Source of the DNA: Salinibacter pepae
Lineage (GTDB): Bacteria; Bacteroidota; Rhodothermia; Rhodothermales; Salinibacteraceae
Length of the DNA: 64,000 nucleotides
Direction: 5' to 3'
Assembly: GCF_947077775.1 (NCBI RefSeq)
Contig: NZ_CAMTTE010000001.1
Span: forward strand, 2,322,501-2,386,500
Each line of letters starts with the position of its first letter. Position 1 is the stretch's first letter. Shown one piece after another: positions 19,923-25,725 of this stretch. Made by a program: the position numbers and the translations under genes. The notes beneath the pieces were generated by a model. It was not told where the DNA came from, made no database searches, and saw nothing but the letters and a program-made list of their open reading frames with translations.

Positions 19923-20462
19923 CTATACCTGCCGTCGTCCCCGTTGGGCAGTGATGACGCCGGTGTTCATGCCCATCCAGTGCATGCCCCCCTGGTAGCG
20001 GCCGTGCTCCATCTTCATGCAGCGGTCCATTACCACGTCGAGCCCGTGCTCGTCGGCAATCGCGGCCGCCTCGGGGCTCACGATGCCGAGCTGCAGCCAC
20101 AGGGCATCGGCCCCAATCGCGGCGGCCTGCTCCGCGTACGTGGGGCACTCGTGCGGGGGTCGGAAGACGTTGACCACGTCGACCGGCCCGGGGACACTCT
20201 CCACGTCCGGGTAGGCGGTCTCGCCGAGAATCGAGTCCGCCTTTGGGTGGACGGGGACGATGTGGTACCCCTGGTGCTGCAGGTACGTCGCCACGAACTG
20301 GCTCGCCTTCTGCGGGCTGGAGGAGAGGCCCACCATGGCGATGGTGTCCGTCGCCCGAAGGAGGCGCCGAATCGTGTCGGGGTGCTGATACTGCTCCTGC
20401 TGCTCCGGCGAGAGCGAGGAGTTCACTGCGAGATCGCATGCAGGGCCTGATCCAGATCCCAT
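19923..20462 (-). CDS. CoA-binding domain protein
   Basis: A 179-residue protein with a Rossmann-type CoA-binding domain: TIAMVGLSSSPQKASQFVATYL, then HIVPVHPKADSILGE, VDVVNVFRPPHECP and ADALWLQLGIVSPEAAAIA. This YccU-like family binds CoA but has no known reaction. A late VVMDRCMKMEHGRY segment is typical of the family. The ATG at 20462 lies inside the end of metY (40-bp overlap, other frame), so the two are probably translated in a coupled way and the protein may work with acyl-homoserine or thioester metabolism; that is inference. Confidence 0.85.
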   Translation of the reverse strand: MGSGSGPACDLAVNSSLSPEQQEQYQHPDTIRRLLRATDTIAMVGLSSSPQKASQFVATYLQHQGYHIVPVHPKADSILGETAYPDVESVPGPVDVVNVFRPPHECPTYAEQAAAIGADALWLQLGIVSPEAAAIADEHGLDVVMDRCMKMEHGRYQGGMHWMGMNTGVITAQRGRRQV

Positions 20463-21784
20463 AGCAGGTCGTTGGTGTCTTCGAGTCCAATGGAAAGGCG
20501 AATCATCCCCGGCGAGAGGCCGCTCGCCCGCATCTCCTCATCGGAGAGCTGCTGATGCGTCGTGGAGGCCGGGTGGAGCACCAGGCTCCGCGCGTCGCCC
20601 ACGTTCGCGAGGTGCGAGAAGAGCTGCAGGTTCTCGATGAAGGTCTTGCCCGCGGCGCGCGGGGCCTGGCCGTCGGGGCTCAGCTCGAAGGTGAAGATGG
20701 CGCCGGGGCCCTTGGGGAGGTACTTCTGGGCGAGGGCGTGGTACGGGTTGCCGGGAAGGCCCGGATAGGCCACGCGCTCGACCCTCGGGTGTTCGTGGAG
20801 GTGCTCCGCCACGGCCTGCGCGTTGTCCACGTGGCGCTCCACGCGGACGGAGAGCGTTTCCAGGCCTTGAATGAGCTGGAACGCATTGAACGGGGACAGG
20901 CTGGCCCCGGTGTCGCGGAGCGTCTCGGCCCGGGTTTTCATGAGGTAGCCCTGGTGGCCGAACGTGTCCGGGAATTTGAGGCCGTGGTAGGAGTCCGAGG
21001 GCTCGGCCACGGCGTCGATGGTGGTGAAGTCGAACGAGCCCCCGTCCAGGACGACGCCCCCGATGGAGGTCCCGTGGCCGCCGATGAACTTGGTCGCGGA
21101 CTGGACGACGAGGGGCACGTCCCAGTCGAGGGGGCGGCAGAGGTAGGGCGTCGCGAAGGTGTTGTCGATGATGAGCGGGAGGCCGTGGGCGTCGGCCAGC
21201 TCCACGAGCGGCTCAATGTCCAGGACACTTCCCTGCGGATTGCCGATCGTCTCGCCGTAGAGCACCTTCGTGTCGTCGGTGATGGCCGCGTCCCACGCGT
21301 CCAGGTCGTTTGGCTCCACAAACGAGGCCTCGACGCTCAGCTTCTGAAACGTGTTCGTGAAGAGGGTTCGCGTGCCGCCGTAGAGGTGCGCGGAGGCCAC
21401 GATCTCGTCGCCGGGCTCCAGCAGTGTCATCAGGGCCACGAGCTCGGCCGCCATCCCGCTGGCGGTGGCCACCGCGCCCACCGCGTTCGCGAGGGACGCG
21501 ATCCGTTCCTCGAAGGCCGCCGTGGTCGGGTTGTTGATCCGGGTGTAGATGTTGCCGTACGCCTTCAACTCGAAGAGCTGGGCGGCGTAGTTGGTGTCGT
21601 CGAAGACGTACGAGGTCGTCTGGTGGATGGGCACGGCCCGCGAGCCCGTCTCGGCGTCGGGGATGTGGCCGGCGTGCAGCATTCGGGTCTCGAAGCCGAA
21701 GTCGCGCCCGGCCCCGACAGCAGACGGGGTCCCGTTGGAAGGAGGGGACGAGGAAGCGGGGGATGTGTCGGAATCGGGGGACAT
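20423..21784 (-). CDS. metY: O-acetylhomoserine sulfhydrylase (MetY-type PLP enzyme)
   Basis: A 453-residue protein from the ATG at 21784 (MSPDSDTSPAS); the longer frame to 21919 overlaps the spacer. It is a Cys/Met-metabolism PLP enzyme: TTSYVFDDTNYAAQLFELKAYGNIYTR near the start, TASGMAAELVAL, DNTFATPYLCRPLDWDVPLV and the PLP lysine in QSATKFIGGHGTSIGG. The size and the FELKAYGNIYTRINNPT segment fit the MetY class that makes homocysteine from O-acetylhomoserine and sulfide. It is the assimilation step at the end of a minus-strand group with SfnG-like, FMN reductase and flavin reductase genes. Confidence 0.93.
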   Translation of the reverse strand: MSPDSDTSPASSSPPSNGTPSAVGAGRDFGFETRMLHAGHIPDAETGSRAVPIHQTTSYVFDDTNYAAQLFELKAYGNIYTRINNPTTAAFEERIASLANAVGAVATASGMAAELVALMTLLEPGDEIVASAHLYGGTRTLFTNTFQKLSVEASFVEPNDLDAWDAAITDDTKVLYGETIGNPQGSVLDIEPLVELADAHGLPLIIDNTFATPYLCRPLDWDVPLVVQSATKFIGGHGTSIGGVVLDGGSFDFTTIDAVAEPSDSYHGLKFPDTFGHQGYLMKTRAETLRDTGASLSPFNAFQLIQGLETLSVRVERHVDNAQAVAEHLHEHPRVERVAYPGLPGNPYHALAQKYLPKGPGAIFTFELSPDGQAPRAAGKTFIENLQLFSHLANVGDARSLVLHPASTTHQQLSDEEMRASGLSPGMIRLSIGLEDTNDLLWDLDQALHAISQ

Positions 21785-21887
21785 TCGAGGGGGGAGGGTG
21801 GTTACAGAGAGTTCGACGGTGGGTGTCGGGAGGCGCCCCAGCGTTTTGCAAACGGATGTCAACATGCGGCCCATTCCCCGTCGGGCT

Positions 21888-22481
21888 TCAACCGGTGGAG
21901 CCGGAGTCGGCAGGGGCACTCACGCTCCGATAGTCCTGGTCGTAGTACAGGAGCGGGCGGGCCTCGTCGCGCTCCTTCAGCTGAGTTACGCGGCCCACGA
22001 CGATGTCGTGGTCCCCGGCCGCGAAGGCTTCGTGCCAGTGACACTGGAGGACAGCCGGAGCTGATTTGAGGATGGGGGTTCCGTGGGGGTCGGTGTGATA
22101 CCTCACCGCTGCGAGCTGGTCGGGGCCGGACCGGTCCGGAGCGGCGAAGTGCTGGCAGAGCTCGGACTGCCGGTCGGCCAGCAGGTGGACGGCAAAGTGG
22201 GAGGCCGCCACCAGCACTGGGTGCATCTGGCTGTCCTTCTCGACGTTGAACGAAACGAGCGGGGGATCCAATGAGACGCTGGTGAGGGAGCCAATCGTGG
22301 CGCCGCGGGCCTCCGAGCGCCCCGCAGCGGTAACGACCGTTACGGGGGACGGGACGCGCTGCATCACGCTGCGGAAGTCCTCACCGGCAATGGAAGGTTC
22401 TGTGGGCACGTGGGAGTAGGGGGGTTGGAGGAGGGAAAACGAATCTGTGGGGGGCCGGGCTTGTCGTGTGGAGACGGGCAT
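21888..22481 (-). CDS. flavin reductase family protein
   Basis: A 197-residue protein of the flavin-reductase-like, FMN-binding split-barrel family: FRSVMQRVPSPVTVVTAAG, then GATIGSLTSVSLDPPLVSFNV and the conserved HFAVHLLADRQ. Such proteins reduce FMN with NAD(P)H and hand it to a partner monooxygenase. Two flavin reductases of different folds sit around one FMNH2-dependent monooxygenase here, which suggests one supplies SfnG. The promoter may lie in the 243-bp spacer to the next gene, which holds an inverted repeat element. Start chosen at ATG 22481; a shorter start at an internal Met would lose the first 40 residues. Confidence 0.87.
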   Translation of the reverse strand: MPVSTRQARPPTDSFSLLQPPYSHVPTEPSIAGEDFRSVMQRVPSPVTVVTAAGRSEARGATIGSLTSVSLDPPLVSFNVEKDSQMHPVLVAASHFAVHLLADRQSELCQHFAAPDRSGPDQLAAVRYHTDPHGTPILKSAPAVLQCHWHEAFAAGDHDIVVGRVTQLKERDEARPLLYYDQDYRSVSAPADSGSTG

Positions 22482-22724: not shown

Positions 22725-23330
22725 TTAAAACTGTGGGCCCAGCTTCGATAGGGCATCGCTATCCTCGATGGCCCGGTGCAGGTCGACCGTCGCCACGCCG
22801 AGGGTGCGCAGGCGCTCGCGTACCGTGTCGTCCGTCAGGGTGCGGTCGTCGCCGTAGTCGTCGCCGTAGTGGTCGCCGTGGACGTACGTGCCGCTGCCGG
22901 CCAGGTGAGCGCCGAAGAAGGAAAGCACGGGGGCAAGCTCTTTCTCGACCACGAGGTAGTGGTGGAGCGACGCGCCGGTCGCCACGAGGCCCACGGCGCT
23001 GTTGGCGAAGGGGGCCACGTCGGCCTGCCACATGCCACGGGGGATCATGTCGAACAGGTTTTTCAGAGTGCCCGCGTAGGAGGCCCGGTACACCGGGGTT
23101 CCCACGACGTACGCCGAGCTCTCGATAATTCGATCTAGGGCCTCGGCCGTATCACCGGTGTAGTGTTCCAGCGACCGTCCGTCGGCAGGATCGAGGTCAT
23201 ACTCGGCTAGGTGAAGAACCTCCGTGTCTACCCCACGCTCCGCCGCGGCGGCGTCCAGGGCCACCTCGACGGCAGCACGGGTGTTGGAGGGGGCGGAGAG
23301 GCTTCCGACAATACCTAGGATGTCACTCAT
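22725..23330 (-). CDS. NADPH-dependent FMN reductase (SsuE-like)
   Basis: A 201-residue flavodoxin-fold protein from the ATG at 23330. It opens MSDILGIVGSLSAPSNTRAAVEVAL, the FMN phosphate loop (GSxSxxSxT), and has YVVGTPVYRASYAGTLKNLFDMIP, the signature of the SsuE/MsuE/ArsH family. These enzymes supply FMNH2 to alkanesulfonate- or dimethylsulfone-type monooxygenases. It lies directly downstream of the SfnG-like gene, so it is the likely partner. A heptamer-based inverted repeat occupies the spacer between them. The longer frame to 23441 reads through that repeat and is rejected. Confidence 0.92.
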   Translation of the reverse strand: MSDILGIVGSLSAPSNTRAAVEVALDAAAAERGVDTEVLHLAEYDLDPADGRSLEHYTGDTAEALDRIIESSAYVVGTPVYRASYAGTLKNLFDMIPRGMWQADVAPFANSAVGLVATGASLHHYLVVEKELAPVLSFFGAHLAGSGTYVHGDHYGDDYGDDRTLTDDTVRERLRTLGVATVDLHRAIEDSDALSKLGPQF

Positions 23331-23387
23331 GAGATCGGGATGGGTCCGGAGAGGTAGAACGTTGTACGGAGCCGGCGCCGCGGTCCG

Positions 23388-23455
23388 TGACGCGTGACGG
23401 GGAAGGGGGACCCGCAGACTCAGGTCCCCCTCACGCATCACCCCTCACGCGCTGG
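23388..23455. repeat. heptamer-type inverted repeat between sfnG-like and FMN reductase genes
   Basis: The left arm GTGACGCGTGACGGGG plus GGGGGACC (23387-23412) faces the right arm GGTCCCCCTCACGC and CCCCTCACGCG (23423-23451). CTCACGC recurs with 7-bp phasing (CTCACGC, ATCACCC, CTCACGC). The arms could form a long hairpin in the operon mRNA. Confidence 0.65.
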
Positions 23456-23456
23456 C

Positions 23457-24593
23457 CTATGCCGGCACCGCCTCCTCCGGGCGATCCAGCGGCTCGGCCT
23501 CCCGCACGGCCGGGATGATCTCCTCGCCGAAGTGGGGAAGCTCGTCCTCGTAGTGCAGAAAGCCGGTCAGCACGAGGTCCACCCCGATCGCGTCGAGCCG
23601 GCGAATGCGCTCCACGACTTGCTCCTTCGTCCCGATGAGGCCGGTGCGAAAGCCGTCGTTGTACTGGACGAGGTCTTCGAAGTCGGAGTCGTCCCACATG
23701 CCCTCGCCTTCGGGGGAGGCCTGCCCGGCCTGTTTGACCTGCTCCTTGAAGCCTTCCACCGCCTCCTCGGTGGCGTGCTCAATGATGTTTTCGAGCACCT
23801 GCTTGGCCTCGGCTTCCGTGTCGCGCACGATGACGAACGAGTTGACGCCGATTTTGGGCGGCTCGACGCCGAACTCGCGGGCGTACCCGTTCACGTCGTC
23901 GATAATGCCCTTCAGGTCTTCGAGGCTTCCGCCGTTGATGAAGAACCAGTCAGAGGCGCGGGCGGCCATGCGCCGGGCACGCTTCGAGTTGCCGCCCTGA
24001 AAGATGTCAGGGGGCGTCTCGGGCGTGGGCTCGCAGGGGGCCTCGTCGATCTGGTAGAAGCGCCCGTCGTAACTGAAGAGGTCTTCGGTCCAGAGGCCCT
24101 TCAGGACCTCAATAAACTCCTCGCTGCGCTCGTAGCGTTCGTCGTGGGCGAGCCAGGGCTCGCCGAAGCGCGTATATTCGCCCTTGAACCAGCCGCTGAC
24201 TACGTTGAGGTGGAAGCGGCCGTTACTGATGTGGTCCGCCGTCGAGACAAAGTTGGCGATGGGCCCAGGCTTCCACTGGCCCGGGTGCACGGCCCCGATG
24301 AGGCGCAGTTTCTCGGTGTGCGAGGCCAGTGCATTGGCGACCGAAAGGGCCTCAAGCTGCTTCTCGGCGTTGTAGCTGCCAAAAAAGCGGGCCTGGGCGA
24401 GGGCGTATTCGAAGCCAATCTCTTCGGCCGTCTGCGCGATCTCTTTGTTGAAGGGCCATTTCCAGTCGGTCTTCATCGGCCAGTCGGTAATGACGAGTCC
24501 GCCGCTAACGTTGGGGACCCAGTACGCAAATGTGGTATCTATGGTGTGAATGCTCCTTCGGGTGAGGGAATGCGGATGGAAAGCGCCGCGCAC
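23457..24593 (-). CDS. FMNH2-dependent monooxygenase, dimethylsulfone monooxygenase SfnG-like
   Basis: A luciferase-like (LLM) flavin oxidoreductase. FAYWVPNVSGGLVITDWPMKTDW at the start, GFEYALAQARFFGSY, LIGAVHPGQWKPGPIANF, HISNGRFHLNVVSGWFKGEY and PPDIFQGGNSKRARRMA are the signatures of the SfnG branch, which oxidises dimethylsulfone to methanesulfinate. FMNH2 would come from the reductase downstream. The 378-residue length assumes the GTG at 24593. The family's N-terminus begins only at about residue 17-22, and a good GAAGGAG box lies at 24553-24559 before a non-standard in-frame ATA (24542), so the true start may be there. A Cys-rich leader and terminator precede the gene. Confidence 0.88.
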   Translation of the reverse strand: MRGAFHPHSLTRRSIHTIDTTFAYWVPNVSGGLVITDWPMKTDWKWPFNKEIAQTAEEIGFEYALAQARFFGSYNAEKQLEALSVANALASHTEKLRLIGAVHPGQWKPGPIANFVSTADHISNGRFHLNVVSGWFKGEYTRFGEPWLAHDERYERSEEFIEVLKGLWTEDLFSYDGRFYQIDEAPCEPTPETPPDIFQGGNSKRARRMAARASDWFFINGGSLEDLKGIIDDVNGYAREFGVEPPKIGVNSFVIVRDTEAEAKQVLENIIEHATEEAVEGFKEQVKQAGQASPEGEGMWDDSDFEDLVQYNDGFRTGLIGTKEQVVERIRRLDAIGVDLVLTGFLHYEDELPHFGEEIIPAVREAEPLDRPEEAVPA

Positions 24594-24605
24594 CTGCCGA
24601 AGGAG
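24553..24605 (-). promoter_or_regulatory. hairpin that can mask the ribosome-binding site of the SfnG-like gene
   Basis: On the minus strand CTCCTTCGG (24605-24597) is complementary over 9 bp to CCGAAGGAG (24561-24553). The second arm contains GAAGGAG, the best Shine-Dalgarno match before the gene. The first arm follows directly after the terminator T-run. Confidence 0.5.
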
Positions 24606-24609
24606 TCAC

Positions 24610-24645
24610 AAAAAAAGCCTGTACTCCGGTGGCAGGAGCACAGGC
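24610..24645 (-). terminator. leader terminator (attenuator) before the sulfur cluster
   Basis: On the minus strand GCCTGTGCTCC (24645-24635) pairs with GGAGTACAGGC (24627-24617), 11 bp including one G-U pair and a 7-nt loop, followed directly by seven T. It lies inside the leader, 33 nt after the stop of the Cys-rich reading frame and before the monooxygenase gene. Confidence 0.85.
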
Positions 24646-24678
24646 ACAGGCGTAGTAGAATGGGACGACGGTTACCTC

Positions 24679-24747
24679 TCACTCCACAGCGCGCACGGGC
24701 TCCTCCGGGGGACACATACATGTGTCACCACAACACAGACACAGCAT
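24679..24747 (-). CDS. Cys-rich leader peptide (22 codons), putative cysteine attenuator
   Basis: On the minus strand an ATG at 24747 opens a 22-codon frame ending in TGA (24681-24679). The first twelve residues are MLCLCCGDTCMC; the rest (PPEEPVRAVE) has no Cys. All five Cys codons are TGT, the less expected choice in a GC-rich genome. The frame is followed after 33 nt by an 11-bp intrinsic terminator and then by a sulfur-acquisition cluster. This is what a ribosome-mediated attenuator needs: lack of charged tRNA-Cys would stall the ribosome in the first half of the frame. CCGGAGGAGC at 24708-24699, just past the Cys codons, can pair with GCTCCT (24639-24634) plus CCGG in the terminator, a possible antiterminator. 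No Shine-Dalgarno box precedes the ATG. Expression is unproven. Confidence 0.6.
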   Translation of the reverse strand: MLCLCCGDTCMCPPEEPVRAVE

Positions 24748-25020
24748 GCCGTGGCGGCGGCTGCGCTGGATGGACGGAGAGGGCGTCTGCACGAACAAGA
24801 GGATTGAGGCGAGAGGACTTCGATAACTGCTCTTCTAAATATCACGAGGCCGGAAGATGTTGCGGCGTCGTGCCAGGGGTTGCCATACTTATTTCCTTCT
24901 TAACACATGGGGCCGGACGCACGCGCGCCGGATGGTACTGGGGGTCGACGGCATGCTCGACGCGGCATCCATGGCATTGCGAGGCGAGGACAGGGTTGCG
25001 AGGGCGCCCCTGCACCGGAG
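24748..25020. other. spacer holding the promoter side of the sulfur leader
   Basis: About 270 bp between the leader frame and the PqiC-like gene. No coding frame is convincing. It is locally AT-richer near 24830-24905 (TCTTCTAAATATCACG and TTCTTAACACATGG on the plus strand), where a minus-strand promoter for the leader is likely, but no clear Bacteroidota -33/-7 pair could be assigned. Confidence 0.4.
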
Positions 25021-25725
25021 TTAGGGGCGGCGGAGCGTCTGAAGGTGCGTGCCCACATCGTTTGCGAGCACGTGGAGGCCGCGGCTAAGGCGGGCAACGA
25101 GCCCCTCGTAGTCGGTTACACGCCAGTCTTCCGTTCGGTGATGGGTGGTTTCCTGCACCAACACGGTGTCCGCCCCTGGCCGGCGAAGGGTCCACTGCAC
25201 AGTCATCTGAGCGTGGCCGTCCGGTGGGGGGGCATCGTCGTCGGCGTCTGGCCCTGGGGGGCGCGGCCCGACGCCCTCGAAGCTGAGGACGTGCAGCCGC
25301 AGGAGGTAGTCGAAGGTCGCCCCGCGCGGCCACGGCACCCCCTCTACAGACCGGATCCCCGAACGGGCCTCCAGCGTGCGGGCCACGGTGCGACCGATGC
25401 CCCGGTCCAGGGTTTCGCCCCACCGGTGAAATTCGGAAAACGCGACCGCGTTGGGGCCGTGGCGCGTCACGAGGCGCGTCTCGTCGAGGTAGGGGGCCAG
25501 GCGCGGGCTTTGCAGGCCGATCCGCAGGCCGGGCGGGTCCGTGGACGGGGGCGGCGTCGCCGCGGTATCGGGGGGCGACGCGCCGTCGAGCAGGTAATAG
25601 GTGGCGTCGCTCGTGCGCGGCTCCAACAGGCGCACACACCCGGCCGTTGAGAGCGCGACCAGGCCGGCGGCCACGGCGCACCATCCGAGCCGACGGAGAA
25701 GAACGGAGGGGACGGGCACAGTCAT
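25021..25725 (-). CDS. ABC-transport auxiliary lipoprotein (PqiC-like)
   Basis: A 234-residue lipoprotein: signal sequence with lipobox LSTAGC at about residues 24-29, then the family's opening TYYLLDG and RIGLQSPRLAPYLDETRLVTR, which match the PqiC/YmbA-type auxiliary component (DUF330). These outer-membrane-linked lipoproteins work with MlaD/MCE proteins in lipid traffic between membranes. The gene starts 4 bp after the MlaD-like stop, the last of four minus-strand genes. A Pro/Asp-rich insertion (PPGPDADDDAPPPDG) is unlike the usual family and fits a halophile's acidic proteins. Confidence 0.82.
   Translation of the reverse strand: MTVPVPSVLLRRLGWCAVAAGLVALSTAGCVRLLEPRTSDATYYLLDGASPPDTAATPPPSTDPPGLRIGLQSPRLAPYLDETRLVTRHGPNAVAFSEFHRWGETLDRGIGRTVARTLEARSGIRSVEGVPWPRGATFDYLLRLHVLSFEGVGPRPPGPDADDDAPPPDGHAQMTVQWTLRRPGADTVLVQETTHHRTEDWRVTDYEGLVARLSRGLHVLANDVGTHLQTLRRP

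Follow-up and report, generated by a model that had tools for sequence, protein, structure and literature searches.

Results

The sfnG locus and its leader

The window, by which we mean the whole 64,000-nucleotide stretch of Salinibacter pepae contig NZ_CAMTTE010000001.1 that was analysed, carries on its minus strand a run of genes headed by sfnG, with a short cysteine-rich frame, a hairpin and a T tract ahead of it (Table 1). A first-pass annotation had read the genes as an SfnG-like monooxygenase, an FMN reductase, a flavin reductase and MetY, which the TIGR04021, PF03358, PF01613 and TIGR01326 matches bear out, and direct reading and folding likewise confirm its 22-codon frame with five Cys codons in the first twelve, all TGT, and its 11-bp stem and T7 tract 33 nt past the leader stop. 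The FMN reductase ORF as listed may start too far upstream, and the CoA-binding protein gene is a putative operon member, placed there by its orientation alone. We also observed that sfnG of the window genome (G000) has ATA (24542-24540, minus strand) at the position where close relatives (G004, G020 and Fodinibius) have their ATG start, and that an in-frame GTG stands at 24593, directly past the T tract and ahead of the gene; the ATA may serve as an unusual start codon, translation may begin at an alternative one, or the gene may be weakened in this strain.

Table 1. Features of the leader region and the genes behind it (window coordinates).
Feature	Position	Strand	Basis
Leader ORF MLCLCCGDTCMCPPEEPVRAVE, 22 codons	24747-24679	minus	direct reading
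Perfect 16-nt palindrome GACACATGTATGTGTC spanning Cys codons 10 and 12	24711-24726	minus	direct reading, folding
Proposed antiterminator strand CCGGAGGAGC, inside the leader just past the Cys run	24708-24699	minus	best helix of helix search
Spacer from leader stop to terminator, 33 nt	24678-24646	minus	most units 26-35 nt
Terminator hairpin GCCTGTGCTCC-TGCCACC-GGAGTACAGGC, 11 bp, 7-nt loop, -19.8 kcal/mol	24645-24617	minus	folding
T7 tract	24616-24610	minus	direct reading
sfnG, dimethylsulfone monooxygenase	23457-24542	minus	SfnG equivalog TIGR04021, 567 bits, cut-off 383
NADPH-dependent FMN reductase, MsuE/SsuE-like	22725-23441	minus	PF03358; TIGR03566 90 bits, below cut-off 212
Flavin reductase-like protein	21888-22481	minus	PF01613 (Flavin_Reduct)
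metY, O-acetylhomoserine/O-acetylserine sulfhydrylase	20423-21919	minus	TIGR01326, 574 bits, cut-off 495
CoA-binding domain protein, final gene of the run	19923-20462	minus	PF13380

The leader reads ATG CTG TGT CTG TGT TGT GGT GAC ACA TGT ATG TGT CCC CCG GAG GAG CCC GTG CGC GCT GTG GAG TGA, with Cys at codons 3, 5, 6, 10 and 12. Across 35 genes of the window Cys makes up 0.52% of codons at a TGC:TGT ratio of 72:18, and given this usage the chance of finding TGT at all five positions is about 3e-4; Within the window TGT is therefore the rarer Cys codon, but it is used at 5/5 positions in the leader and for 168 of the 223 Cys codons in the cysM leaders described below. In a control of 338,224 strand-bases (the window and 30 other loci, both strands), the window leader was the sole ATG ORF of at most 45 codons with at least 4 Cys in 10 and a terminator behind it. 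The palindrome is able to fold into a 6-bp hairpin ahead of the antiterminator, is absent as such from the G020 leader, and can be given only a putative role. Inspection of the region upstream of the leader recognised no promoter, no Shine-Dalgarno-like sequence was evident before its start, and Rfam models run against 24500-25000 gave zero matches even at E=5. The only Rfam match in the window was a TPP riboswitch (RF00059, 61 bits) at 6298-6195 on the minus strand.

The leader design is kept before sfnG

We searched the class (245 genomes), taking SfnG of at least 76% identity as close, and found a Cys-rich short ORF with a terminator directly upstream of close sfnG in 8/8 class members, from two orders whose names were inferred from a few named records and kinship labels. 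The leader is identical (69/69 nt) in the window genome and in the sister species G004, and the remaining leaders, namely those of G020 (MCCVCMRNCHCAEKATWSLG), Fodinibius roseus (MFCSLYMCCMMALCCMPEYKKTTCKRAMLT), F. sediminis (MQFFCSLYMCCMMDMACMPTYPNTACKRARVP), G264 (MTFFCSMYMCCCITDPMMSERHSCTCMGAKAT) and G453 (MMCECCMQMQLCMRKLHPSVKGAGL), share the design despite sequences past alignment; G425 and G427, whose leaders match those of F. roseus and F. sediminis, were counted under these two species. In G497 two complete Cys/Met leader-terminator units stand in tandem before one sfnG (L118:1016-1460). An intrinsic terminator lies between the leader and the first structural gene in 15 of the 15 units analysed, with 26-47 nt between leader stop and hairpin across the sfnG relatives. 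The expectation that the Cys run would be kept while the tail varied held in MLCLCCGDTCMC, MCCVCMRNCHC, MFCSLYMCCMMALCC, MMCECCMQMQLC and MNSTCCMQMCMCMSC, each followed by a terminator at that distance, and the relatives support the annotation's amino-acid attenuator as a whole. A DNA similarity search with the leader returned only noise outside close sister species, because it is the design and not the sequence that is conserved.

Short ORFs are common, and a lipoprotein gene running in the same direction ends upstream at 25021, so that the frame could be read as a chance ORF and the hairpin as the ordinary terminator of that gene. This reading is already contradicted, and we hold it to be very improbable: the design persists in all eight close orthologues despite loss of sequence and with different neighbours, the same device stands ahead of cysteine synthase, and the ORF with its terminator is single in 338 kb of control strands. 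Moreover, the lipoprotein gene found upstream of the leader in the window genome is replaced in G020 by an oppositely read prfA-like frame, which argues that the terminator belongs to, and travels with, sfnG and not the upstream gene.

In the six sfnG loci at 59-62% identity the Cys leader and terminator were absent, and in several of them the gene is placed behind a metY-like gene. These distant loci (L110, L111, L119-L122) have a conserved hairpin, ACCCGGCTCCGAAAATCGGAACCGGGT, some 150 nt upstream of sfnG, together with a conserved CGCCG...ACTTTTTAGCGGA...CGGCAT element ahead of the ATG; compared with Rfam, every family scored below threshold, and the upstream element is possibly an undescribed regulatory RNA. 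Antisense Cys-rich ORFs in L110 and L111 were discarded, since they are located within sfnG.

The composition of the leaders raises the question of which amino acid is sensed. In Balneolales the leaders of sfnG are 23-31 residues long and include 3-5 internal Met (nominal p of 0.0007-0.02 each), as in MCCMMALCCM and TCCMQMCMCMSC, and this enrichment suggests that they read both sulfur amino acids. For the window a joint sensor of Cys and Met, in which stalling at either codon would open the operon, is conceivable but in our estimate somewhat improbable: metY is present in the operon and both the window and G020 leaders have one internal Met beside their Cys codons, but the Salinibacteraceae leaders, that of the window included, show no Met enrichment (1 internal Met, p about 0.4), and Met codons beside Cys could reflect chance or start-codon redundancy. 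The window leader itself looks Cys-specific.

The same device precedes other sulfur genes

We ran the blind pattern TGTTGYTGY-N75-105-T6 on 27 genomes and then checked the downstream genes. It gave 22 listed matches, more than a reversed control pattern, and besides ATP-grasp units the new matches with a convincing leader and terminator lay before cysteine synthase (L123, L137, L143) and a mercaptopyruvate-sulfurtransferase-like gene (L127). Matches at L130 and L131 were rejected as leaders, being the terminator behind an hsp20-like gene, and a (TGY)6 pattern across the phylum was dropped, swamped by repeats that are probably Gln repeats on the opposite strand. As a separate observation, a JAMM-type (desampylase/Mec+-like) protease gene follows cysteine synthase in L123, L137 and L143 (3/3), a hint that cysteine may be made by way of a sulfur-carrier protein.

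At cysM, a polycysteine leader with a terminator was found at 39 of 41 Rhodothermales loci, reaching 9 Cys in 10 residues in G033. The Balneolales-type cysM loci have a polycysteine leader in 14/14 (L189-L202, some 130-240 nt upstream of cysM), in which the Cys run lies close to the C-terminus, with up to nine Cys codons beside the stop; a good intrinsic terminator was mostly not found after these 14 leaders, which probably use another output mechanism, translation or Rho. One could extend this to the window and suppose that its leader exerts its effect chiefly at the level of translation or via Rho, with only a secondary part for the hairpin and T tract, an idea put forward for polycysteine ORFs of mycobacteria and other actinobacteria; the Balneolales cysM leaders, with runs such as CCCCCC near the stop and mostly without a good terminator, resemble the Actinobacteria of PMC1262725. 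However, the window and all close sfnG relatives have a strong hairpin with T6-10 at 26-47 nt, and the leader coevolves with its terminator in the swap test reported below, and we judge such an output improbable for the window.

The device recurs elsewhere. An ATP-grasp gene before a paralogue of the LLM monooxygenase carries a leader such as MTAPSPAHCCCCPYTRA with a terminator in G000, G003, G004, G005, G007 and G016, and G022 has a leader of this type, MMCCCRALRSFL, with a T run. Beside this we note that the pair at L061:7049-4975 (minus strand), a RimK-like ATP-grasp protein and an SfnG/SsuD-like LLM monooxygenase, is kept under its Cys leader in Salinibacteraceae and possibly has a role in an organosulfur or thiol-peptide pathway, and that stop codon and antiterminator strand each occur twice in the G007 ATP-grasp leader (L064:5299-5460), owing to a short direct duplication, GTGTGAGCCGCGTG. 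Sulfurtransferase genes have the same Cys leader device in several genomes, and the window genome's copy has ...VCLCSCLCGMSASCRG and lacks the terminator. The window genome has four Cys leaders (L002, L061, L170, L252), three of them with a terminator, in what is an incomplete list of the regulon; before the cysD/cysH operons of the family no such leader was found within the flanks examined. The annotation had described the attenuator for one organosulfur cluster, which underestimates a device found before several operons.

These leaders also bear on whether the Cys-rich peptide is itself active, for instance as a small protein that senses metals or redox state. Cys-richness and Cys spacing could be features of such a peptide, but the spacing and all other residues vary freely (CCCC, CRCRCPC, MCCVC, CCMQMCMC), the Cys count ranges from 3 to 9 in 10, and the parts that coevolve are RNA elements, so we give an active peptide hardly any credence.

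Proposed antiterminator strands coevolve with their terminators

In the window, CCGGAGGAGC would pair with GCTCCT (24639-24634) and CCGG (24629-24626) of the terminator. As an antiterminator this strand, already named in the first-pass annotation, fared well in that the helix search chose it and most other units have a strand matching the terminator's left arm, located after the Cys run, but the window helix alone does not outperform shuffles (p=0.25; 0.09 in G004), with p=0.013 for the sfnG units combined. RNAduplex statistics with large loops gave only moderate support (Fisher p=0.016), and a helix score combined with an own-versus-swapped control took their place; because both RNAduplex and helix score were chosen after the sequences had been inspected, their p-values do not come from a pre-set test.

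The cysM antiterminator strands copy the 3' arm of the terminator, with GGAGAGGC for GCCTCTCC in G000 and GGGGGGGCAAC for GTTGCCCCTCC in G042, and the helix mostly ends 14-24 nt beyond the last Cys codon, a position that a stalled ribosome would just leave uncovered. When compared with dinucleotide shuffles, 26 of 38 cysM units had p<0.05 (Fisher over 21 representatives, 2e-9). A unit's own terminator fits its antiterminator better than a swapped one both in 21 cysM units (p=0.0001) and in 10 sfnG/ATP-grasp units (p=0.0016), the covariation of terminator and antiterminator that had been predicted.

In a fold simulation with assumed ribosome footprint offsets, the left arm of the window terminator was paired upstream with a probability of 0.63 with the ribosome at the first Cys codon and at 0.08 with it at the stop, part of this gap arising because less upstream RNA is exposed in the latter position; longer exposed RNA always had more upstream pairing on offer. 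Full-length folds favoured the terminator in nearly all states, so the choice would have to be kinetic, as in known attenuators. The Fodinibius leader has strands pairing 1:2, 2:3 and 3:4, and the G000 cysM leader a TCTCC-CCC-GGAGA protector.

Discussion

Taken together, these comparisons make it very probable that positions 24747-24610 (minus strand) act as a transcription attenuator of the ribosome-mediated kind, which would sense Cys-tRNA and so govern the operon of sfnG, FMN reductase, flavin reductase and metY. With cysteine ample, the leading ribosome would cross the TGT codons and the purine-rich strand CCGGAGGAGC, and with this strand covered the 11-bp stem would form and RNA polymerase would halt at the T7 tract. 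When Cys-tRNA is scarce, the ribosome would stall at codons 3-6 and leave CCGGAGGAGC available for pairing with the terminator's left arm and loop, letting transcription proceed into an operon whose products would obtain sulfur from organosulfur compounds and incorporate it into sulfur amino acids. Comparison across the family shows the Cys-rich leader, its linkage to terminator and sulfur genes, and the coevolution of antiterminator and terminator; we infer where the promoter lies, that the leader is translated, that ribosomes stall on it and how the operon responds in vivo.

On a wider scale, we lean slightly towards the view that the class to which Rhodothermales and Balneolales belong controls its sulfur acquisition through leader-peptide attenuators that together form a regulon (sfnG-metY, cysM, sulfurtransferase and ATP-grasp/monooxygenase), each reading cysteinyl-tRNA directly and wired differently between sub-lineages, with dual Cys and Met leaders, tandem attenuators within a single 5' leader and the terminator-free Balneolales cysM leaders. 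The window attenuator would be one member of a regulon apparently undescribed in this group; a literature search, with most subscription papers outside its reach, found no description for Salinibacter or its relatives. Such a regulon would take in both cysteine synthase and the utilisation of dimethylsulfone-type compounds, and would couple the scavenging of organosulfur compounds by hypersaline bacteria directly to the supply of Cys-tRNA. The natural variants (tandem units, Met-rich leaders, a duplicated antiterminator and terminator-free leaders) form a series for the study of attenuator evolution, and the exact sites given here allow experimental tests of the attenuator.

Classical attenuators of the trp, his and ilv operons combine regulatory codons, an antiterminator strand and a terminator, and are of a three- or four-strand type. 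The units described here are similar in their leader codon run, intrinsic terminator and downstream genes that supply the sensed amino acid (sfnG and metY in the window; cysteine synthase and sulfurtransferase in other units), and at the family level in their antiterminator strand. They differ in that cysteine is sensed, and a strong 1:2 protector hairpin over the window antiterminator is not evident. At the family level, all features of ribosome-mediated attenuators that we examined by comparison were found, which would place the units in that class.

Cysteine leader-peptide attenuation has been tested in mycobacteria and predicted in a few other groups. One prediction is uORFC-8-2, found before cysS alone in one proteobacterial order, the Rhodobacterales, with tandem, UGC-dominated Cys codons at positions 14-15, an intrinsic terminator and a proposed ribosome-mediated attenuation by Cys-tRNA (PMC8632094). 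The units described here likewise pair a Cys-codon uORF with an intrinsic terminator, but have up to 9 Cys in 10, are UGU-dominated, and precede several operons, not cysS, in another phylum. Candidate cys leaders of Mycobacterium, Propionibacterium and Bifidobacterium have Cys runs near the stop before cys/cbs genes and no conserved terminator hairpins (PMC1262725); the Balneolales cysM leaders are more similar to these than the window leader is.

The mycobacterial polycysteine leaderless sORFs are tested regulators (Canestrari et al. 2020, doi 10.1111/mmi.14498, as cited in PMC13236596 and PMC9094748), with Cys runs before sulfur and cysteine genes, a cysteine-responsive attenuation and several operons per genome, the mechanism being termed translation attenuation in PMC13236596. 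Here too Cys runs stand before sulfur operons, several to a genome. However, unlike those leaderless ORFs, the leaders described here are linked to an intrinsic terminator and an antiterminator, in another phylum and before an organosulfur operon; in F. sediminis a Bacteroidota-like -33/-7 match about 35 nt upstream of the leader argues against a leaderless start there. The comparative evidence suggests that another bacterial branch has a cysteine attenuation regulon that covers several operons and makes use of intrinsic terminators.
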